Shown: positions 4,391 to 30,635 of the stretch, one piece after another
Layout of the letters: every line of letters begins with the position of its first letter
Numbering within the stretch: position 1 is the first letter of the stretch
Origin: Bacteroidales bacterium
Lineage (GTDB): Bacteria; Bacteroidota; Bacteroidia; Bacteroidales; NBLH01
Assembly: GCA_016937695.1 (NCBI GenBank)
Contig: JAFGWC010000056.1
Span: 1-64,000, forward strand
Length of the DNA: 64,000 nt
Direction of reading: 5' to 3'
The notes under the pieces: model-generated
Seen by the model: only the letters and a program-made list of their open reading frames with translations
Databases searched by the model: none
Told to the model about the DNA's origin: nothing
Translations under genes and position numbers: made by a program

Positions 4391-5137
4391 TTAGTTCTTT
4401 TTAAAAATTTCGTATTTTGCAATTCCTAATTTTTGAAAAAAGTATTTTAAAGATACTCCAAGAACTCCTAAACCGTATTTTATACTTCTTTTTAAATTTA
4501 TTGATGAAGCTTCATCAAAATATTTAGTTGGACAAGTAATTTCAGCAATTTCGTAACCTGCATAAAAAATCTGCGCAAGCATTTGATTATCAAATACAAA
4601 ATCATCAGAATTTATATTGTAAGAAATGCTTTTTAAAACTTCTGCTGAAAAAGCTCTGTAACCTGTATGATATTCAGAAAGTTTTTGTCCCATTAAAATA
4701 TTTTGTGTTAAAGTTAAAAACCTATTTGCAATATATTTGTATAAAGGCATTCCGCCTTTTAAAGCTCCTTTTCCTAAAATACGCGAACCAATTACAACTT
4801 GATAAACATCATTGGCAATTAAATAACACATTGAATGAATAAGCTTTGGAGTATATTGATAATCAGGATGTAACATAACTACAATATCAGCATTTAATTC
4901 TAGGGCTTTATTGTAACATGATTTTTGATTTCCTCCATAGCCTTTATTTACTTCGTGCGTTATTACATGTTTTATTCCGATATTTTTTGCAACTTCAACA
5001 GTATTGTCTGTGCTTAAATCATCAACTAAAATAACATCATCAACAATATCGTGTGGTATTTCGTTATACGTAATTCCTATTGTTTTTGCTGCGTTATAAG
5101 CCGGAAGAACAATTACTACTTTTTTATTATTTATCAT
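4391..5137 (-). CDS. Glycosyltransferase family 2 (polyprenyl-phosphate sugar transferase type)
   Basis: 'KVVIVLPAYNAAKTIGITYNEIPHDIVDDVILVDDLSTDNTVEVAK', 'ADIVVMLHPDYQYTP'. Confidence 0.85.
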   Translation of the reverse strand: MINNKKVVIVLPAYNAAKTIGITYNEIPHDIVDDVILVDDLSTDNTVEVAKNIGIKHVITHEVNKGYGGNQKSCYNKALELNADIVVMLHPDYQYTPKLIHSMCYLIANDVYQVVIGSRILGKGALKGGMPLYKYIANRFLTLTQNILMGQKLSEYHTGYRAFSAEVLKSISYNINSDDFVFDNQMLAQIFYAGYEIAEITCPTKYFDEASSINLKRSIKYGLGVLGVSLKYFFQKLGIAKYEIFKKN

Positions 5138-5162
5138 TTTTATTAAATTTAAAATATAAGTT

Positions 5163-6827
5163 TTATAAAGGTTTTCTTAAAAAAAATACAAATCCATTTT
5201 CTGATTTTACTTGTTCAAAATTTGTGAAAGTGTTTGAAAATTCTTTTGCGCTTGTGATTTTACAAATAAAATATACAGGTTTATCAATATTCCCGCTTGT
5301 AAGCCATTTAAAATCATACGAATTCTTATTTTCTGGGATATTCTTTTTTGTGTAAAAATATTGCGCATAGCTTTTAAAATAATATGTATTTACATAACAA
5401 TCTTTATTCGAAATTTCCTTATAAAAGCTTATTGCAGCATTTTGACTATATTTTTCAATTTTTGGAACTATAAAAAATAATGTGAGATTAACAAAAATTA
5501 ATGTGCTTGAAAAAATTGTAATTATTTGATATCTAGTCGTTTTTATGAAAAATATAGATATAATAACGCCCAAAATTAAAATTATTCCGATTAAAAATTC
5601 GTAACCTGACCAATTTACATTGGCTTGCAAATTAGCTATTGCAAATTCATCGTCAATTAATCCTGAATTTATAATTTTGTCTTTATATTTTACAAAAAAT
5701 TGTATTGCTATTACTGATATTCCAATAATAAAAGAAACAAAAACAAGTAAAGTTTTTATCCAGATTTTTATTGTTTCATTTTTTTCTAAAGTGTTGTATA
5801 TCACCAAAGTAGCAAGAAAACTTAATGGAAAATAGCATAATGAAGAATAGTGCACAATTTTTGTGTTTACAATGGTAAATAATATTAAAACAAGCCAAAA
5901 CAATATAAGCATCCATTGTTTAAAGTTTTTTTGTTCTGTATTAATATCAGTACTTTTTTTGAAGGCTTTTAATGCAAAAATTGATGCCGGAAAAACGCCA
6001 AAAAATAAAACTACAAAATGATAAAGCATAAATCCGCCATGTCCGGCGTCTTTTTCGCTAAAAAGCCTAATTTGATATTCAATAAAATCGACAATTATAT
6101 TGAAATTTCCATTTAAAATTTGAAGAATAAACCAAAATCCGCCAACAAATAAAATGGTTACAGCGTAAATTAAAATTACTTTTAAATTTAAAAATTGTTT
6201 GTACTTTTTATTTAAAACCATGTAAATAAATGCTGTTAATCCAAACAATAAAAATCCAACAGGACCTTTTGTAAGTACTGATAATCCAATTAAAAATGCC
6301 GATATAAAAATCATCAGCAATGGTTTTTTGGTTTTTTTATTACTATATAATATGAAAAAATAAAGTCCAGAAAAAATAAATAAATTAAACCAAGGATCTA
6401 TAATTCCTGATTTAAAGTATAAAAAAGGTAGAATTGAGCCTAAATAAACTAAAACCCAAATTAATCCGAACTTATTGTTATACAGTCGTTTACCAATATT
6501 GAAAAACAATAAAAGACTTACGATTCCGGCAATTACGTTAGGAAAACGTGCAGCAAATTCATTTATTCCAAATATTTTCATGCTTAAAACCTGCATCCAG
6601 ATAAAAAGTGGTGGTTTTTCCCAAAACGGTACATAATCTATTTGAACAGATAAGTAATTTCCTGTAACTATCATTTCTCTGGCCGATTCGGCAAAATTTA
6701 TTTCGTCCCAATCGAATAAATGAACGCTTCCTAAAAATGGAATAAAAAATATTGCCGAAATTACGATAATTGAAATGTGAATTATATAATTTTCTTGTTT
6801 AGCTGATATGTTTTTCATAAAAAACAA
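5163..6827 (-). CDS. ArnT/PMT-like GT39-family integral membrane glycosyltransferase
   Basis: 'FDWDEINFAESAREMIVTGNYLSVQIDYVPFWEKPPLFIWMQ' N-terminal motif; multiple TM segments. Confidence 0.85.
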   Translation of the reverse strand: MFFMKNISAKQENYIIHISIIVISAIFFIPFLGSVHLFDWDEINFAESAREMIVTGNYLSVQIDYVPFWEKPPLFIWMQVLSMKIFGINEFAARFPNVIAGIVSLLLFFNIGKRLYNNKFGLIWVLVYLGSILPFLYFKSGIIDPWFNLFIFSGLYFFILYSNKKTKKPLLMIFISAFLIGLSVLTKGPVGFLLFGLTAFIYMVLNKKYKQFLNLKVILIYAVTILFVGGFWFILQILNGNFNIIVDFIEYQIRLFSEKDAGHGGFMLYHFVVLFFGVFPASIFALKAFKKSTDINTEQKNFKQWMLILFWLVLILFTIVNTKIVHYSSLCYFPLSFLATLVIYNTLEKNETIKIWIKTLLVFVSFIIGISVIAIQFFVKYKDKIINSGLIDDEFAIANLQANVNWSGYEFLIGIILILGVIISIFFIKTTRYQIITIFSSTLIFVNLTLFFIVPKIEKYSQNAAISFYKEISNKDCYVNTYYFKSYAQYFYTKKNIPENKNSYDFKWLTSGNIDKPVYFICKITSAKEFSNTFTNFEQVKSENGFVFFLRKPL

Positions 6828-11865: not shown

Positions 11866-12450
11866 GTGGACAATATTAAAAAAATAAACAATAAAATTAA
11901 ATTAGATAAATTACTGATTTGGATAATATTTACTATACTTTTCGTAATTAATAGTGAGTATAAAAGCTATGCGCAAAAAGTTGATGAATATAATTTAAAA
12001 ATGGCATATATTTTAAACTTTCCACTTCTTGTTGAATGGCCGGAGAATTCGAATGTAAATAATGAAAATGAACCTTTTGTAATTACAATAATTGGCGACA
12101 ATCCTTTTAACGGAAAATTTAAAGCTGTTATTGAAACAGGAAAGAAAAAAATAAAAAATAAAACAGTAGTTTTAAGACAAGTTGACAATATTGAAGAAAT
12201 TAGAAATCCGAATTTAGTATTTATTTCATCTTCAGAAAAACATGAAATTTCAAAAATTATAGATTATTTAAGTGGAAAACCAATATTAATAATTGGTGAT
12301 ACAGAAGGATATTCAAATAGAGGTGTGATGATAAATATGTTTAAAAGAAATTCAAAAATTCAATTTAATATAAATATAAAAGAAGCAAAAAAATCAAATA
12401 TGCATATTAGCTCCAGATTATTGGTTAACGCTTCAAAAGTTTATAAATAG
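11866..12450 (+). CDS. YfiR-family (DUF4154) periplasmic protein (GTG start)
   Basis: 'EYNLKMAYILNFPLLVEWPEN...FVITIIGDNPF', 'VDNIEEIRNPNLVFISSSEKHEISKIIDYLSGKPILIIGDTEGYSNRGVMINMF'. Confidence 0.85.
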   Translation: MDNIKKINNKIKLDKLLIWIIFTILFVINSEYKSYAQKVDEYNLKMAYILNFPLLVEWPENSNVNNENEPFVITIIGDNPFNGKFKAVIETGKKKIKNKTVVLRQVDNIEEIRNPNLVFISSSEKHEISKIIDYLSGKPILIIGDTEGYSNRGVMINMFKRNSKIQFNINIKEAKKSNMHISSRLLVNASKVYK

Positions 12451-12459
12451 TATTTTAAT

Positions 12460-14247
12460 ATGAAATATTTTTACAATTTATCGATAAAAACAAAAATAAG
12501 CTTAATAATTATTAGTATCAGCTTGTTTGCTGTTATTTTTAGTTTTTTTGTTATATCAATAAATAACGTACAAACTTTTAAAAATGATTTAGTATTACAA
12601 AATTCTTTAACTGCAAAGCTTATTTCAGAATATTTAATTTATGCAATTGCATTTGACGATACAAAAGATGCTGTTGAAACACTTGATAAATTAAACACAC
12701 AACCATTTGTTTTAAAAGCAGAATTATACGACTCAAAAGGTAAGTTTTTTGCTTCATATAAAAATAAAAAAGCTTCAAGAAAAAATCTTATTTATAAGAA
12801 TTCAAGCTTCAATTTTAGTGGCGATAAGTTACATATTTATGAATCTATTCATGCTGATGGAGAATTTTTTGGCACTTTACATTTATTAATTACAACCGAG
12901 TATTTAAATCAAAAAGTAAAAGATTATTTTTTTTTAATGCTGATAATTATTTTTGTAATGAGCTTATTTGTTGTTTTTCTGGCAAATTCATTTCAAAATA
13001 TTATTACAAAGCCTATATTAAAACTTGCAAGTTTAACACAAGAAATATCTAAAACCAACGATTACACAATTAGAATTAATAAGTTTTTTGATGATGAAAT
13101 TGGTATTTTATATGAAGGTTTTAATGAAATGCTTGAGCAAATAGTTAAAAATGAGACAAATACGAGAAAAGCTCAAACAGCCTTAATAAAATCAGAAGAA
13201 CAATTTAGCATTTTTATGCAAATGTTACCAGCCGGAGCTTTTATTAAAAACGCAGATTATACTTATAAATATGTAAATAAATTTTTAATTGATGAGTTTG
13301 ATGCACATTATTGGGTTGATAAAAATATTACATCAAATTTACCTTCAGAAAGAAAACAATTAAAAAATGAAGGCGATATTGAGGCTTTGGAAAATGTTTT
13401 TCATTTGGAGGACTCATTATATGATAATAAGAACGAACTACGATTTTTGGAAACATGGAAATTCCCAATAAAAAGACATAAAACAGAAACATTAATTGGT
13501 GGTTTTACAATTGACGTTACAAAACGAAAAAATGCTGAACAAAAAGTTAAATATTATATTAAGGAATTAGAAAGAAACAATAGTGACCTTGAAGAATTTA
13601 ATTACGTTGCAAGTCATGATTTGAGAGAGCCTTTAAGAACGATAACAAGTTATTGCGATTTATTGAAAGAAGATTTGGGCGATGAATTAAATAAAGATTC
13701 TAGTGAAGATATTAATTTTATTACTGATGCTGCCGCAAGAATGAATACTTTAATTCAGGATATATTGCAACTTTCAAGAGCCGGAAGAGTAGAATTTGAA
13801 CAAGAAGCAGTAGATCTTAATGTAATTATGTCTAATATTGTTAAAGATTTAAAACTGAAAATTGAAGAAAATTTAGCAGAAGTAAAATATAGTAACTTGC
13901 CTATCGTTAAAGGAGATGCTGTTCAATTAAGTCGTGTTTTTCAAAACTTATTAACCAATTCGTTAAAATTTAAATCAGAAAAAAAACCAATAATTGAAAT
14001 TACTACCAAGTTAAATGATGATTTTTATATTTTGAACTTTTCCGATAATGGAATTGGAATAGAAAAACAATATCATATGCAAATTTTTTCAGCCTTTAAA
14101 CGCTTGCATTCTCGAGAAGAATATGAAGGAACTGGTATAGGTTTAGCTATTTGCAAAAAAATTATTGAAAGGCATAATGGTTCAATAAGTTTAGAATCTG
14201 AAAAAAATATAGGTACAAAATTTATTATAAAGCTCAATAAATACTAG
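12460..14247 (+). CDS. Sensor histidine kinase: CHASE8-like sensor, HAMP, PAS, HisKA, HATPase
   Basis: N-terminal TM-sensor-TM; 'VASHDLREPLRTITSYCDLL' H-box; 'NLLTNSLKFKS', 'FSDNGIGIEKQY', 'GTGIGLAICKKI'. Confidence 0.9.
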   Translation: MKYFYNLSIKTKISLIIISISLFAVIFSFFVISINNVQTFKNDLVLQNSLTAKLISEYLIYAIAFDDTKDAVETLDKLNTQPFVLKAELYDSKGKFFASYKNKKASRKNLIYKNSSFNFSGDKLHIYESIHADGEFFGTLHLLITTEYLNQKVKDYFFLMLIIIFVMSLFVVFLANSFQNIITKPILKLASLTQEISKTNDYTIRINKFFDDEIGILYEGFNEMLEQIVKNETNTRKAQTALIKSEEQFSIFMQMLPAGAFIKNADYTYKYVNKFLIDEFDAHYWVDKNITSNLPSERKQLKNEGDIEALENVFHLEDSLYDNKNELRFLETWKFPIKRHKTETLIGGFTIDVTKRKNAEQKVKYYIKELERNNSDLEEFNYVASHDLREPLRTITSYCDLLKEDLGDELNKDSSEDINFITDAAARMNTLIQDILQLSRAGRVEFEQEAVDLNVIMSNIVKDLKLKIEENLAEVKYSNLPIVKGDAVQLSRVFQNLLTNSLKFKSEKKPIIEITTKLNDDFYILNFSDNGIGIEKQYHMQIFSAFKRLHSREEYEGTGIGLAICKKIIERHNGSISLESEKNIGTKFIIKLNKY

Positions 14248-14256
14248 TATAAACTC

Positions 14257-14727
14257 ATGTACACTTTGGAACATAATAAAAATAATATTGCAGTTACATT
14301 ACTTGTTGAGGATAATATTGCAGATCAGCAACTTACAGTTAGAGCATTTAAAAAAGGGAAAATTAATACAAATCTACAAATAGTAAATGACGGACAAGAA
14401 GCAATGGATTATTTACTTGGCGTAGGAAAATATAGTAACCAAGAAGAATATCCATGGCCTGATTTAATTTTATTGGATATTAATATGCCAAAAAAAGATG
14501 GAAAACAAGTTTTAAAAGAAATAAGACAACATCCTGATTTAAAAACAATTCCGGTTGTAATGCTAACAACTTCTGATCAAGAAAATGATGTTTTAGATTC
14601 TTACAAATTTGGAGCTAATTCATATATAACCAAACCAGTTAGAATTAATGATTTTATTGATGTTGTTAACAAATTGGAAGAATTTTGGTTTACATTAAGT
14701 CTTTTACCACCAAAGAAACAAAAATAA
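14257..14727 (+). CDS. Single-domain response regulator (Rcp1-like)
   Basis: 'LLVEDNIADQQLTVRAFKKG', 'DLILLDINMPKKDGKQVLKEI', 'PVVMLTTS..YITKPV'. Confidence 0.95.
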   Translation: MYTLEHNKNNIAVTLLVEDNIADQQLTVRAFKKGKINTNLQIVNDGQEAMDYLLGVGKYSNQEEYPWPDLILLDINMPKKDGKQVLKEIRQHPDLKTIPVVMLTTSDQENDVLDSYKFGANSYITKPVRINDFIDVVNKLEEFWFTLSLLPPKKQK

Positions 14728-14753
14728 TTATATTTGTAAAAGAATAATAAATT

Positions 14754-16670
14754 GTGAAAGAAAATAAATGTACCATATTAATTATAGACGATAATCCGGC
14801 TGACCAAAATTTGCTAAAACGATATTTTAGAAAAATTGAGGTTTCCAGGGAAATTGAAATATTTACAGCATCAACAAGCGATTCTGGCATTTCGATTAGC
14901 TATTTGAACAAACCGGATATCATAATTATTGATTATTTATTAGGCAATGAAAATGGTATAGAAGTAATAAAAAAATTTAAAAATATTGGTTGCAAAGCAG
15001 AGTTTGTTCTTTTAACGGGATATGGTAGTGAAATGGTTGTTACTGATGCACTTAGAGCAGGAGCAAGCGACTATATCAATAAAGCAAATTTGTCTGTTCA
15101 GATGCTTGAACGAACAATGAGACAAATCAGGCACAAATTAGATGCAGAAGAAAAAATTAGAAAAACAGAATCAAAATTAAGCTATATTCTCGAAAAAACT
15201 AATACTGGTCTTGTTATTCTTGATTCTAAAGGTTTATTGATAGATGCTAATGAATCATATTTAAAAATGGTTGGATTTAGCTCAGTTGATTCACTTATTG
15301 GTCGTTCAATGATTGATTGGTCAGTTGAATCATGCGAAAATGAAATTAATAATGCAATTAAAAAATGTGTTGGCGAAGGCTCAATTACAGATTTTGAAAC
15401 AATTTATGTTCATCCTAATGGCGAACAAACATATGTGTTAATTAATGCTTTGTTAGAAAGTGAAAATAAAGAAAATAAGATATTTGCTATATGCAGAGAT
15501 ATTACAGAAATAAAACTTTATGAAAACAGCTTAAAACAAGCAAAAACAAAAGCCGAAGAATCAGATAATTTAAAATCAGCATTTCTTGCAAATATGAGTC
15601 ATGAAATTAGAACTCCAATGAATGCTATTATCGGTTTTGCTGATTTATTGAGTAAACCATATACACCTGAAAATGAAAAAGAGAAATATTATAATATAAT
15701 TAAAAATAGTGGAAATAGCTTGCTCAATATAATTGATGATATTATAGATTTATCCAAAATTGAAGTAGAAAAAATTGAAATCTATAAACAAAATTTTGAT
15801 GCGAATAAATTATTAAAAACTCTTTACATTACATATTCTCAATATTCTAATTCTAAAATTGAATTTGATTACGATAATAAACAAACTAATATTGAAATTA
15901 TTATAAATTCAGACCAGCAAAGGTTTAAACAGATTTTTGATAATCTTTTAAATAATGCATTTAAATTTACTGATGCCGGAAAAATTAATTTTGGATATAA
16001 AATTGAAAAAAATAATAAAATCCTTTTTTATGTTAAAGATACAGGTATTGGAATTATAAAAAATAAACAAGAAATTATTTTCGATAGATTTAGAAAAATT
16101 GAAGATAATAATACTAAACTTTACAGAGGAACAGGATTAGGATTAACAATATCAAAAAAACTAATAGGACTTTTGGGTGGAGAAATATGGGTGGAATCGG
16201 AATTAGGAAAAGGCTCCGAATTTTATTTTAAATTACCATATAAACATACTACTAAAAAAAATATTCAAGAAAAAGATAAAATGATAGATACAGACACTAT
16301 TCAAAATTGGGGAGATAAAACATTATTAATAGTAGAAGACGAAGAATTAAATTATTTGTTTTTAGAAAAGCTATTAGCTCCTACTAAAGCATTGATTATC
16401 AGAGCTAGAACAGGAATTGAAGCTGTAGAAAATGTTAAAAATAATAAATCTATAGATTTAATTTTAATGGATATTAAATTACCGGAAATGGATGGTGTTA
16501 CTGCAACTAAAGCAATTAAAAATATTTTTCCTGATTTACCAATTATTGCTCAAACTGCATATGCGATGATAGGAGACAAAGATGAATTTTTAATTGCCGG
16601 TTGTGATGATTATATTGCAAAACCTATTAATGCTGTAAAATTAATTTCTAAAATGAAAAAGCTTTTATAG
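14754..16670 (+). CDS. Hybrid histidine kinase: REC-PAS-HisKA-HATPase-REC (GTG start)
   Basis: '[17 protein letters not shown]', '[19 protein letters not shown]', '[18 protein letters not shown]...[15 protein letters not shown]'. Confidence 0.92.
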
Positions 16671-16748: not shown

Positions 16749-19700
16749 ATGAGTAAAGAAAAAAAATTTGGTGTATTTGCAGGTGTTTTTACACCTTCAA
16801 TTTTAACCATTCTTGGCGTAATTATGTACTTAAGGTTGGGCTGGGTTGTTGGTCAAGGCGGATTATTGATGACTTTAGGTATTATTTTTATTGCTCATAT
16901 TATTTCTGTTTCAACCGGATTAAGTATTTCATCAATAGCCACTGATAAAAAAATTAAAACAGGAGGAATTTATTATATTTTATCAAGAAGTTTAGGACTT
17001 CCAATGGGAGGAGCTATTGGGATAGCATTATTTACCGGAACAGCATTAAGCATTTCTTTATATATTGTGGGTTTTACCGAAAGTTTTATAGGTATTAAAT
17101 GGATAAGTGAATTCTTTTCTTTAACAGGAAGCACAAATGAAATAAGATTTATAGGCACAATTGTTATTATTGTGCTTGTTACATTAGCTTTTATCAGTAC
17201 ATCATTAGTAATAAAAACTCAATTTTATATTCTTGGGGCAATAGCTTTATCCTTAATTTCAATTGCTATTGGATTTTATACAAACGAACTGCCTGAAACT
17301 CACAGTGTTATTTTAAAACCATCAGTAAATGAAATACCTTTTGAGTATTTATTTGCTGTTTTTTTTCCTGCAGTTACTGGTTTTACTGCAGGTGTTGCTA
17401 TGTCTGGTGATTTAAAAAATCCACAAAAAGATATTCTTAAAGGTACTTTAATTGCAATATTAGTTGGTTTATTTATTTATGTGATCTTAGCTATTGGTGC
17501 AGCATATTATGTTGACAGAGATATGCTTATTAATAACAGTAATTATCTTATCGAAATTGCATGGATTTCGCCTTTTGTAGTAATTGGTATTTGGGGTGCT
17601 ACTTTATCATCAGCTTTAGGAGGTATTTTAGGTGGACCAAGAATATTGCAAGCTATTGCTAATGACAACATTATGCCTAAAATTTTAGGTAAAGGATATG
17701 GCCAAAATAATGAACCCAGAAACGCTTTAATTCTAATTTTTATAATTTCTGAACTTGGAATTTTAATTGGTGATTTAAATATGATTGCCGGAGTTGTTTC
17801 TATGTTTTATTTAGCTTCTTATGGATTTATTAATTTGGCTTATGCTCTTGAAAGCTGGGCAAGTACTGATTTTAGACCAAGTTTTAGAATTTCGGGTTGG
17901 ATTGGAATAGTTGGTTTTTTTGCAAGTTTTGCTGTTATGTTTAAGCTAGATACAACGGCAATGTTCGCTTCTCTTATTATTATGGCTGCTATTTTTTTGA
18001 TTATCAAAAGAAAAGAGCTACAATCAGATTTTGGTGATGTTTGGCAATCTGTTTGGTCTTCTATTATTAGAACTGCGCTTCATAAAATTGATAATAATAA
18101 AACTGAAGACAGAAGTTGGCAGCCAAACATAATTTTGTTTAGCGGAGCTTCTGAAAAAAGACCGCATTTAGTCGAATTTGGTAAAAATTTAGTCGGAAAG
18201 TTTGGAGTTCTTTCAAATTTTGATCTTATCGAAAATAAATCATCAAATTTCTTATTCTCTAGGCAGGAGCAATCGCTTGATAATGACAACAATGACAAAG
18301 GAATTTTTTATCGGAAACAATCGTGTAAAGATTTGTATGACGGCATTGAAATTATTGCAAGCACTTATGGTTTTTCCGGAATTGAGCCAAATACAGTTCT
18401 TATGGGCTGGGCAAGCCAATCTAAAAATCCTAAACGATTTGCAAATTTAATTATGAGATTATACGAATTAGATTTGAATATTGTGCTTATGGATTATGAT
18501 AAGAGATATGGTTTTGGAGATAAAAACTCTATTGATATTTGGTGGCGTGACGAAGGACAAAATAATAATTTATCGCTGTTTCTTGCTAAATTTTTAATTT
18601 TAAATGACGATTGGGCTAATTCTAAATTAAGACTTATTATTGTTAGCGATAAAAGTTTACAAAATGAACAAATATTTAAAAAAGCACAGTGTGTAATTGA
18701 AAATCTGAGAATTGAAACTGAAATTAAAATAATTAATAATCAAATTGACCAAAAAGATTTTTATGATATAATTAGAATTGAATCGAAAGAAACTAATCTT
18801 GTATTTATTGGTATTCCTGATATTGAAGAAAATAAGGAAAGCGAATTTGTTGAAAATACTTCAAAGCTTTTAACTGATATTGGAACTGTGGTTATGATTA
18901 AAGCTTCTTCTTTTTTTAAAAACACTGTTTTTTTTAAAAAGCGAGAAAATATTTCTATTAATATTTTGAGCCAAAATATTGATAATGTAATTGTTGCAGA
19001 TGATTCTATTGACCAAAAATATAATCTTAAACAAGATTATAAAGAAAAATTAATTGAAATAAATCAAAAAATAATTTCTATTAATAAAGAAGTTAACGAG
19101 AAATTTTTAAGCGATAGCATCAATAAATATATTTCTGTAAGTAAAAATTATTTAAACGAACAGATAAAAAGAATTAAAGAAATTAATAAGTCTAAAAACT
19201 ATACACAGTTTGATGAAGTTTATAATTCGGCAAATTATATTATTGATGAATTGAATAAAATTTCGATTGAAAATAATAATAATTATGTAAAAGCTATTAA
19301 CTATTTTCAGGAAAAAACACTTGAATTTATTGATGAACTTCCTGATAATATGTATATTAAATGCGATATTGAAGAACTTAAAATTCATGAGAACGATAGT
19401 TTTTCTACAAAAAGAAAAAAAAATATACTTAAATTGTTTTCAAAATTTAATGGCGGAAAAGTTACAAATCAAATTAAATTTAAGAAGTTTATAAAAAATA
19501 AGCTTCCTTTAATTACAAGTGAAGCTATTAAAAATTTTATTACAAATTGGGATAAAATTATTTTTGAAATATTTGTGATGTTGAAAGAAATGCATCAATC
19601 ATTACAATTATGCATTCAGTTTAATAATAAATTAGTTAAAAACAATTGCGTTTGGTCTAATGATAATATTTTAAAAATTGATAAGATAAATTTCGATTTT

Positions 19701-21899
19701 ATTGAAAATGAAACAAAAGTTTTAAATCAATTATCGTTTCTTTATAATATTTTGAATAAGGAAATTGCTGATAACCTGGCACTTGACTTTGAAAATTTTA
19801 ATTTAAACAGTCTTATTAAACTTACAAAACCCGAAAAATTAAATTTTAAACAAACTATAAATCAGTTATCTGATTTTACAAATCAAAGTTTAAAATGGCA
19901 TAAGTATTATTATAACGAACTTAAACTTGAAATTGATTTAATTCAATTAAACATTGAGTTGTATAAATTATCTTCAGATGTTTATAACGAGCTGGAAAAG
20001 AACATTGATAAAGTTTTAGTTAAAAATATCAATATTTTAAAAAGCAATATATCTAAAGCATTAAATTTTTTATCAGATACGGCTAAAAATGGAACTTTAA
20101 AGTTTGAAAATATTAATGGATTTAATTTTGAAACTATTGACCAACTAATCAATGCTTTAATTGAAAATTCAATTGCTAAAATAGATTCATTTTTGATTAT
20201 TGTTGAAGAAAAAACAGAAGTTTTTGAAAACAATATTTCTGATGATGGAGATTCTAAAATTCTTATTGATACAAAAAAAATATTATCAAAACGTTTAGCT
20301 GAAGAATTAATAGCAAATAGCTTTACAAAAATGCTTTATCAAATATCTGAAAATTTGCCGGAACAAATAAAAGAAGCTGAAAATGAAATACTTAACAATA
20401 ACAGATTAATAAAATATAGCATTATTAAAAGTGATAATGCAAAGGATACAGAATTTATAAATGAAGCTGATGTAAAAGCGTTTTTAGAAAAAAAATTGAT
20501 AGAGTCAGAAAGTTTCTTTGATGAAATTAATCGTATAAAAAATGAAACACACCAAAAAATAATTAATAATTTTAGTTTAACTTTTGAAAAACTACAACTC
20601 TATAATTTTAAAAAAGAAGCAAACAGTTGGAATCAATTATTGCCATCAAGTAAAAATATTAATAAAATATCAAAAATAAAGCAATATTTATCAAAAGTAA
20701 ATTCATTTATCGATATACAAATAAACCAGTTTTGGTATAAACAAAGTGATGCTTTATTGCTTGCAAATCAACTAACTAACAATGATGTTAATGAAAAAAT
20801 ATCTTTAAATAAAATATTAGATTTTACCGAAAAAGTTTCCATAAAACCAGAAATTGAAAAAAATCTTCCTTTTTATTACAAACATTTATTTTTGAACAAG
20901 AATTATTATAATAAAGATTTTTGGTTTGGACGCAACGACGAACTAAAAAGAGCAGATAAAGCTTACGAAAGATTTCTAAATAATTTTCAGGCTGCTCTTT
21001 TGGTTACAGGCGAAAAAAACTCGGGGAAATCCTTTTTTATAAATATATTTTGTCAGAATAAACCTAAAATTAAACATTATTTTGTAAACGCACCAAACGA
21101 TGGCAGTACTGATGAAAAACAATTTTTAAAAGCACTTCAGGACGCAACAAATATTGATGGTGATTATAAAAACATATTTAAAACCATTAAAAAAAATTCG
21201 ATTATTATTATTGAAGATATTGAATTGTGGTGGACAAAATCGGAAAATGGAAATACGCTTATTCAGGAAATTTACAAACTTATAAATGAATACAGCAAAA
21301 AAGTATTTTTTATTGTTAGCGCAAACTTTTACAGTTATAAAATTATTGATGAAATAAATCCTTCAAACTATTTATTTTTAGATACTATTATCTGTAATCC
21401 ACTAAATACTAAAACATTACAAGATATTATAATGTTCAGACACCAATCTAGCGGATTAAAATTTGCAATAAAAGAAAATCAAGATAAATTACTTATTCAA
21501 AAGGATTTTAAATCAAAGAATTTTGCAAAGCTTTTTTCAAAATATTTTAATTATACCGATGGAAATGTTGGAGCTGCTTTATTAAGCTGGATTGCAAATA
21601 TCGAAGAAATTAAAGATTCTGAAATAATTATGAAATCGCCAAAAAATATAAATCTTTCAGTTTTTGATTTTTTAGAAAAATCTTTTCTGATGATTTTAAA
21701 TCAATTTGTTATTCATAATAAATTAAACATAGACAAACTTTCGCAAATTTTACTAATTGAAAAATCGATATTAAATAATAAATTGGAATTATTAATAAGA
21801 ACCGGAATTATTAATATAAACAATCATAACGTAATGGAGATAAATCCATTTTTAAATAAACATATTGTTAATTTGCTGAAAGAAAATGAATTGCTTTAA
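16749..21899 (+). CDS. SLC12/NKCC-like APC-superfamily transporter fused to a helical region and a C-terminal P-loop (AAA/STAND-like) ATPase
   Basis: N-terminus 'FGVFAGVFTPSILTILGVIMYLRLGWVVGQGG' and 'FFPAVTGFTAGVAMSGDLKNPQKDILKGTL'; C-terminus Walker A 'VTGEKNSGKSFF' and Walker B 'SIIIIEDIELWW'. Single uninterrupted 1716-aa ORF. Confidence 0.88.
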   Translation: MSKEKKFGVFAGVFTPSILTILGVIMYLRLGWVVGQGGLLMTLGIIFIAHIISVSTGLSISSIATDKKIKTGGIYYILSRSLGLPMGGAIGIALFTGTALSISLYIVGFTESFIGIKWISEFFSLTGSTNEIRFIGTIVIIVLVTLAFISTSLVIKTQFYILGAIALSLISIAIGFYTNELPETHSVILKPSVNEIPFEYLFAVFFPAVTGFTAGVAMSGDLKNPQKDILKGTLIAILVGLFIYVILAIGAAYYVDRDMLINNSNYLIEIAWISPFVVIGIWGATLSSALGGILGGPRILQAIANDNIMPKILGKGYGQNNEPRNALILIFIISELGILIGDLNMIAGVVSMFYLASYGFINLAYALESWASTDFRPSFRISGWIGIVGFFASFAVMFKLDTTAMFASLIIMAAIFLIIKRKELQSDFGDVWQSVWSSIIRTALHKIDNNKTEDRSWQPNIILFSGASEKRPHLVEFGKNLVGKFGVLSNFDLIENKSSNFLFSRQEQSLDNDNNDKGIFYRKQSCKDLYDGIEIIASTYGFSGIEPNTVLMGWASQSKNPKRFANLIMRLYELDLNIVLMDYDKRYGFGDKNSIDIWWRDEGQNNNLSLFLAKFLILNDDWANSKLRLIIVSDKSLQNEQIFKKAQCVIENLRIETEIKIINNQIDQKDFYDIIRIESKETNLVFIGIPDIEENKESEFVENTSKLLTDIGTVVMIKASSFFKNTVFFKKRENISINILSQNIDNVIVADDSIDQKYNLKQDYKEKLIEINQKIISINKEVNEKFLSDSINKYISVSKNYLNEQIKRIKEINKSKNYTQFDEVYNSANYIIDELNKISIENNNNYVKAINYFQEKTLEFIDELPDNMYIKCDIEELKIHENDSFSTKRKKNILKLFSKFNGGKVTNQIKFKKFIKNKLPLITSEAIKNFITNWDKIIFEIFVMLKEMHQSLQLCIQFNNKLVKNNCVWSNDNILKIDKINFDFIENETKVLNQLSFLYNILNKEIADNLALDFENFNLNSLIKLTKPEKLNFKQTINQLSDFTNQSLKWHKYYYNELKLEIDLIQLNIELYKLSSDVYNELEKNIDKVLVKNINILKSNISKALNFLSDTAKNGTLKFENINGFNFETIDQLINALIENSIAKIDSFLIIVEEKTEVFENNISDDGDSKILIDTKKILSKRLAEELIANSFTKMLYQISENLPEQIKEAENEILNNNRLIKYSIIKSDNAKDTEFINEADVKAFLEKKLIESESFFDEINRIKNETHQKIINNFSLTFEKLQLYNFKKEANSWNQLLPSSKNINKISKIKQYLSKVNSFIDIQINQFWYKQSDALLLANQLTNNDVNEKISLNKILDFTEKVSIKPEIEKNLPFYYKHLFLNKNYYNKDFWFGRNDELKRADKAYERFLNNFQAALLVTGEKNSGKSFFINIFCQNKPKIKHYFVNAPNDGSTDEKQFLKALQDATNIDGDYKNIFKTIKKNSIIIIEDIELWWTKSENGNTLIQEIYKLINEYSKKVFFIVSANFYSYKIIDEINPSNYLFLDTIICNPLNTKTLQDIIMFRHQSSGLKFAIKENQDKLLIQKDFKSKNFAKLFSKYFNYTDGNVGAALLSWIANIEEIKDSEIIMKSPKNINLSVFDFLEKSFLMILNQFVIHNKLNIDKLSQILLIEKSILNNKLELLIRTGIININNHNVMEINPFLNKHIVNLLKENELL

Positions 21900-21974: not shown

Positions 21975-22706
21975 ATGGATACAGAATTTAACTTAACAAA
22001 TCCGAATATATATGCTTTTATAATTTTTGGTGTAATTATCTATTTCATATTCAGAATATTACATTTTGTAAATAAAAAAATTACTTATAAAAATATTTTA
22101 AAACCTAAAATCGCTAAATCTATTTACATTTTAGAGCTTTTTACTTGGTTTCTGTTTCTTTTTAAGTCAATTCAGCATTTTACTACTAAAAATCCACTTT
22201 TTAGTTATTTACTGATTTTTATTTTGGCTTTTCTTTTAATTTGGACTTTGTGGTATATTTTAAAAGATTATTTTGCAGGATTATATATTAAAATATGCGG
22301 AAAATATAAAAAAGACGATATAATTTCATTTGATACAATATCAGGAAAAATAGTAAAATTTGCTGAAAGAAAGCTAATTATAGAAACAAACGGATTACAA
22401 AATCTAGAAATTCCTTACAGCAAACTTTTTGATAAATATATCTCTATTTCAACAAGTGTTGGAAATTTTTCAAAAGCCGATTTTTTAATTAAAATTAGTA
22501 ATAATGTTGATATTGAGGAAGTTATAGAAAAAATTAAAATAAGTTTAATTCAGTTTCCTTGGACAAATACTAAATTTACGCCAAGCATTAAAATTGAAAG
22601 ACTTGAAGCTGATTTTGTTTGTTTAAGAGTTACAGCATCAATAATCGACAATAAATATATTTCTGTTTTAGAATCTAAAATAAAAGAAAAATTTGAGAAC
22701 AATTAA
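21975..22706 (+). CDS. Small MscS-like mechanosensitive channel family protein
   Basis: TM segments then 'DYFAGLYIKICGKYKKDDIISFDTISGKIVKFAERKLIIETNGLQNLEIPYSKLFDKYI', the MscS TM3/beta-domain pattern. Confidence 0.65.
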   Translation: MDTEFNLTNPNIYAFIIFGVIIYFIFRILHFVNKKITYKNILKPKIAKSIYILELFTWFLFLFKSIQHFTTKNPLFSYLLIFILAFLLIWTLWYILKDYFAGLYIKICGKYKKDDIISFDTISGKIVKFAERKLIIETNGLQNLEIPYSKLFDKYISISTSVGNFSKADFLIKISNNVDIEEVIEKIKISLIQFPWTNTKFTPSIKIERLEADFVCLRVTASIIDNKYISVLESKIKEKFENN

Positions 22707-22755: not shown

Positions 22756-24015
22756 ATGAAAAATTCAAATATCAAAAGCTTTATATTATTAATTTTTCTA
22801 TTTTCTCAAATAAGTTTATTTGCACAAGATTTTGTGTGGCAAGCAAAAGTTGGACTTGTATCACAAAATTCATATCAAAAAATAAATTTAAATCCGTCAA
22901 TTATCTCTAAAATGGAAAATGGTTTTGATGATATTAGAATTTATGATTCGAAAAATATTGAAGTTCCATATATTTTAGAAAGCGAAAATCTTGTTAATAA
23001 AAGCGATTATTTTATTGAATATGAGATAGTTTCAAAAGAAAATATCAATAAATGGCCATATTATACAAGATTAATAATCCATAATCCTTATAAAAATAAT
23101 ATAACTAAATTTTATTTGGTAATAAAAAATTCAGATGTAACCAAATCTCTTAAATTAAGCGGTAGCGATGATAAATCTAATTGGTATATCATAAAAGATA
23201 ATTATCAGTTTCAATCTGTTTACAGTAACCAAAACACATCAGAAATTGAGATAATGAACTTTCCTAAAAGCAATTACGAATATTTTGAAATTCTTATCGA
23301 CGATTGGAAAAATAATCCTATAAATATTCTAAAAGCAGGTTATTTCGACAGCTCTTACGAAGAAGGAAAATTCTCTAAAATTGAAGCGCCAATAATAATT
23401 CAAGAAGAACTATCGGCTGATAAACAAAGTTTAGTGAAGATACAATATGCTTATAATCAATTAATTAATAAATTATCTGTTGATATTCCAACATCAGATT
23501 TTTATTTCAGAAAAGCGGAAATACAAATTAAAGACAGCATTATTTATAAAAAAAAGAAACCCGAAATTTATTATAGAACTATAAAAGAAATAACATTAAG
23601 CTCAAATAGCTCAAATACATTTTATTTAGACAATTTTAAAACAAAAGAATTTTACTTAAGAATTTATAATAAAGATAACAAAGCATTGAAAATTGATAGC
23701 GTAAATGCTTATCAATTAAATAATTACCTTATTTGCAAATTAGAAAAACGAGGTTCGTATATTTTAAAATTTGGTGATAAAAACACACCAAAAGCTGAAT
23801 ATGATTTGGCGTATTTTATAAACGATATTCCTACAGATATTCCAAATATAGATTGCAGCAATGTCGAAAAAATAAGTTCTGCAATTATGCAAAAAGAAGC
23901 AGGTGTAAAAATCAGTAAAACTTACATTTGGCTTGCCATTTTTCTTGTAATTTCATTTTTGGCTTATATGACTTTTAAAATGCTGAAAGACATGAAAAAA
24001 GAGCAAAAAGAATAG
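22756..24015 (+). CDS. DUF3999-like secreted protein with C-terminal TM anchor
   Basis: Signal peptide; 'VWQAKVGLVSQNSYQKINLNPSIISKMENGFDDIRIYDSKNIEVPYIL'; C-terminal TM 'TYIWLAIFLVISFLAYMTF'. Confidence 0.6.
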   Translation: MKNSNIKSFILLIFLFSQISLFAQDFVWQAKVGLVSQNSYQKINLNPSIISKMENGFDDIRIYDSKNIEVPYILESENLVNKSDYFIEYEIVSKENINKWPYYTRLIIHNPYKNNITKFYLVIKNSDVTKSLKLSGSDDKSNWYIIKDNYQFQSVYSNQNTSEIEIMNFPKSNYEYFEILIDDWKNNPINILKAGYFDSSYEEGKFSKIEAPIIIQEELSADKQSLVKIQYAYNQLINKLSVDIPTSDFYFRKAEIQIKDSIIYKKKKPEIYYRTIKEITLSSNSSNTFYLDNFKTKEFYLRIYNKDNKALKIDSVNAYQLNNYLICKLEKRGSYILKFGDKNTPKAEYDLAYFINDIPTDIPNIDCSNVEKISSAIMQKEAGVKISKTYIWLAIFLVISFLAYMTFKMLKDMKKEQKE

Positions 24016-29888: not shown

Positions 29889-30635
29889 TTAGTTTAATGC
29901 TTTTTCGTAATTTTCACTTACTTTATTCCAATCAATAACATTCCAATTTTCACTTATAAAATCGCTTCTTTTATTTTGAAATTTTAGATAATAAGCGTGT
30001 TCCCAAACATCAATTACAAGTATTGGTTTGCCTTTTACTTTTGCTATATCCATTAATGGATTATCGTGATCGCGTGTTGAACAAACTTCTAATTTATTTT
30101 CATTATTAACAATAAGCCAAGCCCAACCTGAACCGAATTGACTTGATGCTGAATTACTTACTGTATTTATTAAACTGTCTAATGTTACAAATTCATTTGA
30201 TATTGCTTCGGCAAATTTACCAGAAGGTTTTGTTTCTCTTTTATTTGATAATATCGACCAAAATAAGCTGTGATTAAAATGTCCGCCGGCATTATTTCTA
30301 ATTGCATCAGAAAATTTTGAAACATTTTGTAAAATTTCTTCTAAAGTCATTGCTTCTGCTTCTGTTCCGATTATTGCTTTATTCAATTTCTTTACATATC
30401 CTGCGTGATGCTTTGTATAATGTATTTCCATTGTTCGTGCATCAAGAAAAGGTTCAAGTGCATTGTATTCAAATCCAAGAGCTTCTTGTTTAAATTTTCC
30501 TAAAATTTCAGGTTCTGCTGTTTCTTTTACTAAGGTTTTTTCTGTTTGTTTTTCTTCTTTGTTGTTATCATTATTTGGACAACATGCTGAAAATAAAAAG
30601 AATACAGAAGCTAATAAAATTAATGTTTTTTTCAT
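29889..30635 (-). CDS. Fe/Mn superoxide dismutase with lipoprotein signal peptide
   Basis: Lipobox 'FLFSACC'; 'MEIHYTKHHAGYVKKLNK', 'GGHFNHSLFW', 'VIDVWEHAYYLKFQNKRSDFI'. Confidence 0.92.
   Translation of the reverse strand: MKKTLILLASVFFLFSACCPNNDNNKEEKQTEKTLVKETAEPEILGKFKQEALGFEYNALEPFLDARTMEIHYTKHHAGYVKKLNKAIIGTEAEAMTLEEILQNVSKFSDAIRNNAGGHFNHSLFWSILSNKRETKPSGKFAEAISNEFVTLDSLINTVSNSASSQFGSGWAWLIVNNENKLEVCSTRDHDNPLMDIAKVKGKPILVIDVWEHAYYLKFQNKRSDFISENWNVIDWNKVSENYEKALN

Follow-up and report, generated by a model that had tools for sequence, protein, structure and literature searches.

A bacterial SLC12 cotransporter fused to an AAA+/STAND-like ATPase and encoded beside an MscS-like protein: a candidate module for osmotic and K+ regulation

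Why should a cation-chloride cotransporter carry a P-loop ATPase at its C-terminus, and is a gene with this architecture real? The question was raised by an earlier note on the window (the whole stretch of 64,000 nucleotides of Bacteroidales DNA that was analysed), which had singled out a long reading frame of this kind as one uninterrupted ORF. It is indeed a single ORF, and its product of 1716 residues consists of an NKCC-type SLC12 transporter (residues 1–735), a cytosolic helical arm of ~620 residues and an AAA+/STAND-like ATPase with a winged helix (Table 1). Mis-assembly of two genes, an objection that the note had itself put forward, is ruled out by ~90 independent full-length orthologues of identical architecture in Bacteroidota and neighbouring phyla, by the isolates among them (Mangrovivirga halotolerans, Fulvivirga marina and Marinigracilibium pacificum) and by a second SLC12-ATPase fusion of 1667 residues in the same genome (L003, 5707–10710, − strand). 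A first scan of genome contigs with the ATPase fragment alone as query returned no match; an alignment-based scan of GTDB genomes found the fusion in Bacteroidota, Chlorobiota, Ignavibacteriota, Calditrichota, Marinimicrobia and Latescibacterota, cultured isolates included, and a family-level search gave a match in 7 of 7 genomes and the fusion itself in 6 of these. The fusion's ATPase is present in about 35 of the 198 genomes of the order. The second fusion of the window's genome, which is paired with an MscS-like gene of its own (4991–5695, − strand), has only 35% identity to the window copy and falls in a different subclade, so that this genome holds two ancient versions of the fusion. Identity to the window protein is mostly 51–77% in the transporter, 28–42% in the ATPase and lowest in the arm (Table 1), but the divergence of the last two segments is not decay, because the Gly and Lys of Walker A and the Arg-His pair are kept throughout. 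We conclude that the fusion is real and ancient.

Table 1. Features of the fusion gene and its surroundings, with positions in the window
Feature	Positions	Strand	Basis or remark
Sensor kinase / response regulator genes, co-directional	12460..16670	+	also beside the SLC12-less ATPase of G002 (L046)
SLC12–helical arm–AAA+ ATPase fusion gene, 1716 aa	16749..21899	+	same architecture in ~90 loci
APC-fold SLC12 transmembrane core with NKCC-type ion sites, residues 1–436	16749..18056	+	profile and structure matches, site alignment
Tyr105, equivalent to human NKCC1 Tyr383 (K+ site); Tyr in 85/89 fusions	17061..17063	+	NKCC1 alignment; PMC7889885
Ser287-Ser288, equivalent to NKCC1 Ser613-Ser614 (Na+ site)	17607..17612	+	NKCC1 alignment; PMC7889885
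CCC-type cytosolic C-terminal domain, residues 437–735	18057..18953	+	KCC/NKCC alignments reach residue ~713
Cytosolic helical arm, residues ~736–1360, fast evolving (11–24% identity to orthologues)	18954..20828	+	model, segment identities
AAA+/STAND-like ATPase core, residues ~1361–1640	20829..21668	+	profiles, model, fold search
Walker A GEKNSGKS, residues 1421–1428; Lys in 93/93 SLC12-fused homologues	21009..21032	+	alignment
Walker B IIIIED, residues 1485–1490; acids drift to Asn/Gln/His in some homologues	21201..21218	+	alignment
Conserved Arg-His pair, residues 1564–1565; RH in 88/93 fusions	21438..21443	+	alignment
Winged-helix-like C-terminus, residues ~1641–1716	21669..21896	+	weak wHTH profile matches, model, fold search
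MscS-like partner, 243 aa: three helices, beta domain, alpha/beta tail; TM3 without Ala/Gly pattern	21975..22706	+	
DUF3999-like gene, co-directional	22756..24015	+	only a weak candidate for co-transcription

The reading of the N-terminal part as an SLC12 core followed by an SLC12_C-like domain is borne out by profile and structure comparison. Pfam AA_permease matches residues 13–429 at 2.5e-44, and KCC and NKCC structures in the PDB align at E values down to 4e-78 with coverage up to residue ~713, which means that the transmembrane core and the CCC-type C-terminal domain are both present. The K-Cl cotransporter model TIGR00930 matches residues 3–675 at 2.8e-114, but its 383 bits lie below the cut-off of 953, and the fusion is therefore homologous to this KCC subfamily model of NCBIfam without being a member of it. 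To assign site residues, the fusion was aligned to human NKCC1, for which the Na+, K+, Cl− and gate residues are given in PMC7889885, and conservation was counted over 90 fusions. Besides the tyrosine and the serine pair listed in Table 1, residues L19/T20/I21/L22/G23/V24/I25 align to NKCC1 L297–M303, R29 and E111 to the R307–E389 gate, P207/T210/G211 to P496/T499/G500, A284 (beside S287/S288) to the Na+ site residue A610, and Y358 to Y686. Y105, S287/S288, T210, G211, Y358 and R29/E111 are kept in 85–90 of the 90 fusions (Ser287 in 89, Ser288 in 86 with Thr in three more); the NKCC1 TM1 Asn, which is Thr in the fusions, is the sole exception among the site residues. A KCC type rather than an NKCC type is ruled out by the Ser-Ser Na+ site, since that pair is absent from KCCs, and because the NKCC1 site residues are retained almost without exception we predict, from residue identity only, transport of the Na+-K+-2Cl− type. 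In one fusion on a long branch (L065, genome G009) the SLC12 part is without the Ser-Ser site and other site residues, and the arm, the ATPase and the MscS-like partner are still there.

The segment that follows, for which ~600 residues of helical sequence had been predicted, is charged, belongs to no Pfam family and contains no transmembrane segment. In a model of residues 687–1716, for which 60 homologues were aligned (pLDDT 80 on average and ~90 over the ATPase), it is composed of long helices of 43–83 residues each, followed by an AAA+ core and then a winged helix. In sequence comparisons the ATPase is faint: the window protein matches AAA_22 at an E value of 0.003, the ATPase profile gives only weak matches against the PDB (best E 0.009), and AAA_16 is matched by 22 of 23 family members (best 3e-8), with nSTAND profiles matching as well. 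The fold search with the modelled C-terminal half resolved its identity, returning RuvB, PABY2304 and Cdc6/Orc1 at E values from 6.5e-7 to 2.6e-6, winged helix included, as well as TnsC and p97; the matches listed are AAA+ proteins, none of them indicating a relative of the helical arm. As modelled, the C-terminal part has the AAA+ fold with a winged helix, in agreement with the AAA/STAND-like assignment in the earlier note, and the two Walker motifs lie exactly where they had been placed there. That the domain might be a degenerate ATPase, the other objection foreseen, is ruled out by the Walker A Lys, which is invariant among the SLC12-fused homologues (Table 1), and by the fold. The acidic pair of Walker B is ED or DD in 39 of 93 SLC12 fusions, and in the rest usually a single acid is kept, its companion being N, Q, H, C, A or E; the usual sensor-2 Arg of AAA+ proteins is absent from the alignment as read by eye, GN[V/I/P]G standing at the expected place. 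Because neither the Walker B acids nor this Arg are strictly kept, the domain may bind nucleotide only, and in both respects it would seem more like STAND switches than motors.

Directly downstream of the fusion, in the window and in most of its homologues, lies a gene for an MscS-like protein of ~240 residues. In the window its product matches PF00924, the MscS beta domain, with 24.7 bits (cut-off 20.2), and its model (pLDDT 90.6) matches the MscS fold at an E value of 2e-11; by model and by profile, the partner has the MscS fold. The fold search lists E. coli MscK first, then YnaI and MscS, close together; MscK is K+-regulated in E. coli. The MscS-like gene is next in 69 of 83 readable SLC12 fusion loci, in 5 of 5 Na+/H+-exchanger fusions and in 38 of 43 ATPase-only ORFs, being directly upstream in two more (three of these ORFs, L067–L069, are fusions cut by the extent of the fetched stretch), while the SLC12-only genes of the order, which encode ~740 residues, have a downstream MscS-like neighbour in none of 23 cases. 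Across the 198 genomes of the order, with partner-family matches at E 1e-37 or better and generic MscS proteins appearing from 4e-23, the partner was detected in 32 of 35 ATPase-positive and in none of 163 ATPase-negative genomes (Fisher p 8e-34), a result that partly repeats the adjacency signal, since the partner profile was built from the fusions' neighbours. The three ATPase-positive genomes with no detectable partner (G006, G103 and G119) are 87–93% complete. Among six genomes with an unlinked fusion, five have the partner elsewhere (G005, G022, G082, G178 and G185; not G103), as does G002, in which the ATPase is without the SLC12 part, and none of the five genomes whose fusion-lineage SLC12 gene is without the ATPase (G081, G107, G160, G184 and G191) has the partner. 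From the genome-level comparison, G002 and these five genomes it follows that the partner tracks the ATPase and not SLC12, in a near-obligatory pairing for which the SLC12 part is dispensable. When joint loss of the two is traced on the SLC12 tree, the result leans the same way, but the test is underpowered (four independent pairs of ATPase and partner loss, sign-test p ~0.5).

This distribution bears on the simplest account of the neighbouring gene, namely that the MscS-like protein acts on its own as an efflux channel, a safety valve merely co-expressed with an ATPase that regulates SLC12 alone. Its clear MscS fold would suit such a role, and co-expression by itself would make sense if both proteins served osmotic balance. 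We nevertheless consider this account unlikely, for the partner is absent where the fusion lineage has lost the ATPase, yet persists where SLC12 has been lost (G002) or is replaced by a Na+/H+ exchanger or by nothing, and the pore helix also argues against it. The Ala+Gly fraction of TM3 is 0.17 in the partners of SLC12 fusions (n=69) and 0.16 in those of exchanger fusions (n=6), as opposed to 0.31 in the partners of stand-alone ATPases (n=34), which retain the MscS TM3 pattern, e.g. ASVGIAIGLAAQDLLKNVFGG. Judged by these sequences, the Ala/Gly-rich pore helix has been lost from the partners of fused transporters, and what was a pore may have become a structural or sensory subunit once the transporter took over the flux.

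The ATPase family is found fused to SLC12, fused to a transporter of the Na+/H+-exchanger type, in a trio of separate genes, and alone beside a canonical MscS channel. The exchanger-ATPase fusion matches PF00999 at 7e-19 and 4e-21, and its operon comprises a 414-aa ORF, the MscS-like gene, TrkH and TrkA; two proteins with no significant PF00999 match were assigned to this group, L098 by similarity and L101 (1465 aa, beside TrkH/TrkA) by its position in the ATPase tree and its operon. The three-gene form, in the order ATPase, MscS-like gene and Na+/H+ exchanger, occurs at two loci (L111 and L224). In the ATPase tree the SLC12 fusions make up one supported clade, which includes G002, nested within it, and one long-branch row, L111; the exchanger fusions form a clade of their own (98/91), a long branch away. 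The ATPase has therefore been attached at least two separate times to unrelated transporters. The presence of the same ATPase on an unrelated exchanger fold, or on no transporter, makes it highly improbable that it powers transport directly, as part of a primary pump built from an SLC12 carrier; the union of ATPase and transporter on one chain would be expected of such a pump, but the Na+ site needed for secondary coupling is preserved and the hydrolytic residues drift.

Reduced forms of the module were also observed. In the congeneric genome G002 the SLC12 part has been lost, and the arm and ATPase form an ORF of their own (L046, 6127–9111, + strand, 994 aa), with the MscS-like partner on another contig. 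Elsewhere there is a stepwise reduction to SLC12 plus arm without ATPase (1310–1345 aa) and to SLC12 alone (736–737 aa), and the loci concerned (L036, L161, L191, L195; L034, L187, L194) have no adjacent MscS-like gene, L034 lying near a contig end. G192, considered as a natural split into SLC12 and ATPase genes, was rejected since both ends are truncated at contig boundaries. In another group of stand-alone ATPases (L048–L051 and L047, in which the contig end cuts after the MscS-like N-terminus) the Walker A Lys is replaced (GEKGSG[ITV][TS]) and a canonical MscS channel is still the partner; these are possibly nucleotide-independent relatives of the module. Such Lys-less relatives, still paired with MscS, do not sit well with the idea that the ATPase is an AAA+ chaperone that assembles or remodels the MscS-like ring and the transporter and is no moment-to-moment regulator, and a permanent fusion to a transporter, at one copy per chain, would be unusual for a factor of this kind. 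The winged helix of the AAA+ domain, the long helical arm and the occurrence of stand-alone ATPases beside canonical MscS channels are all compatible with a chaperone, which on balance we regard as improbable.

The gene neighbourhood was considered for what it says of function. Pairings of STAND-like ATPases with membrane effectors are frequent among anti-phage defence systems, and an abortive-infection system with the STAND ATPase as sensor and the transporter or MscS channel as effector would fit that general pattern as well as the weak PADLOC matches. These matches are to generic P-loop models, however, and the search for a known defence model or a defence-island context recognised no defence genes among the neighbours, which are Trk or housekeeping genes; with ion-binding sites and architecture kept over ~90 orthologues from several phyla, a defence role appears very unlikely. 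Directly upstream of the fusion (11866–16670, + strand) are genes for a possible YfiR-like protein of 194 residues, a sensor kinase, a response regulator and a hybrid PAS/HisKA/receiver protein, and this same cluster also stands ahead of the SLC12-less ATPase in G002. Farther downstream (29889–30635, − strand) is a gene for a protein that resembles, by eye, an Fe/Mn superoxide dismutase with a lipoprotein-type signal (SACCP), possibly a membrane-anchored enzyme.

The suggestion in the earlier note that ATPase and arm could gate, assemble or sense fits these observations but was unspecific, having been made without the partner gene, the paralogue, the exchanger fusion and the Trk operon, all of which indicate a module that regulates cation transport and osmotic balance. 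We favour, with some confidence, an ATP-dependent module of osmotic or K+ homeostasis in which an MscS-like ring is the membrane subunit. We propose that a cotransporter of the Na+-K+-2Cl− type is governed by an ATP-dependent switch at its own C-terminus, where the arm and the AAA+/STAND-like ATPase form a cytosolic assembly that would act with the MscS-like membrane protein of the adjacent gene. Like MscS, this protein probably assembles into a ring, and it could provide a membrane or cytosolic platform for the ATPase, possibly also a sensor of tension or ionic strength. Binding or hydrolysis of ATP would then activate or silence the transporter, or else bring about assembly of the complex, depending on osmotic or K+ state. 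In this scheme we infer the physical contact, the direction of control, the signal that is sensed and the hydrolysis of ATP.

Bacteria couple their ion uptake to turgor or to K+ state in ways that are understood only in part, and the roles of bacterial SLC12 proteins seem to be poorly known. SLC12, AAA+/STAND and MscS are each established families, and the transporter belongs with SLC12 by homology, but neither the SLC12-ATPase fusion nor the AAA+-MscS pair turned up in searches of Pfam, of NCBIfam and of a largely open-access literature. A single genetic unit here joins an NKCC-type transporter, a putative ATP switch and an MscS-like protein, with the ATPase-MscS pair as its conserved core, an arrangement that suggests that an MscS-family protein is able to serve as a non-pore subunit and that bacteria may have an undescribed way of controlling salt uptake. 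More speculatively, and as a tentative extension that is less likely than not, the AAA+/STAND ATPase, always with an MscS-family ring, could define an undescribed class of bacterial ion-transport regulators that attaches to secondary transporters of unrelated kinds (SLC12, Na+/H+ exchangers, a Trk context), the MscS fold having been turned from a tension-gated pore into a sensor of tension or ionic strength that feeds an ATP switch. If this is true, turgor directly controls the uptake of K+, Na+ and Cl−.

With NKCC1 and KCC1–4 the fusion shares the transmembrane core and the CCC C-terminal domain, and with NKCC1 in particular the Na+, K+, Cl− and gate residues; it differs from them by ~980 extra residues, the helical arm and the AAA+ ATPase. 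Eukaryotic SLC12 members are phosphoregulated, and the added part of the fusion lies outside every family model used. The CCC of Methanosarcina acetivorans and the ~740-aa SLC12 genes of the order have the same core and C-terminal domain but no ATPase, and the latter genes, with their lack of a downstream MscS-like neighbour, form a clade distinct from the fusions in the SLC12 tree. The ATPase resembles Cdc6/Orc1, RuvB and PABY2304 in Walker A, fold and winged helix; unlike these, it is fused to a transporter, has GN[V/I/P]G where the sensor-2 Arg motif would be expected and stands outside a DNA-related context. The partner has the PF00924 beta domain and overall fold of MscS, MscK and YnaI, from which the fusion partners differ by the loss of the Ala/Gly-rich TM3 pore helix and by being paired with an ATPase. 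In Trk/Ktr systems TrkA forms a Rossmann RCK ring rather than an AAA+ assembly, and there is no MscS-like subunit; the likeness lies in nucleotide-dependent cytosolic control of cation transport, and Trk genes are found in the same operon as the ATPase of the exchanger-fusion lineage.
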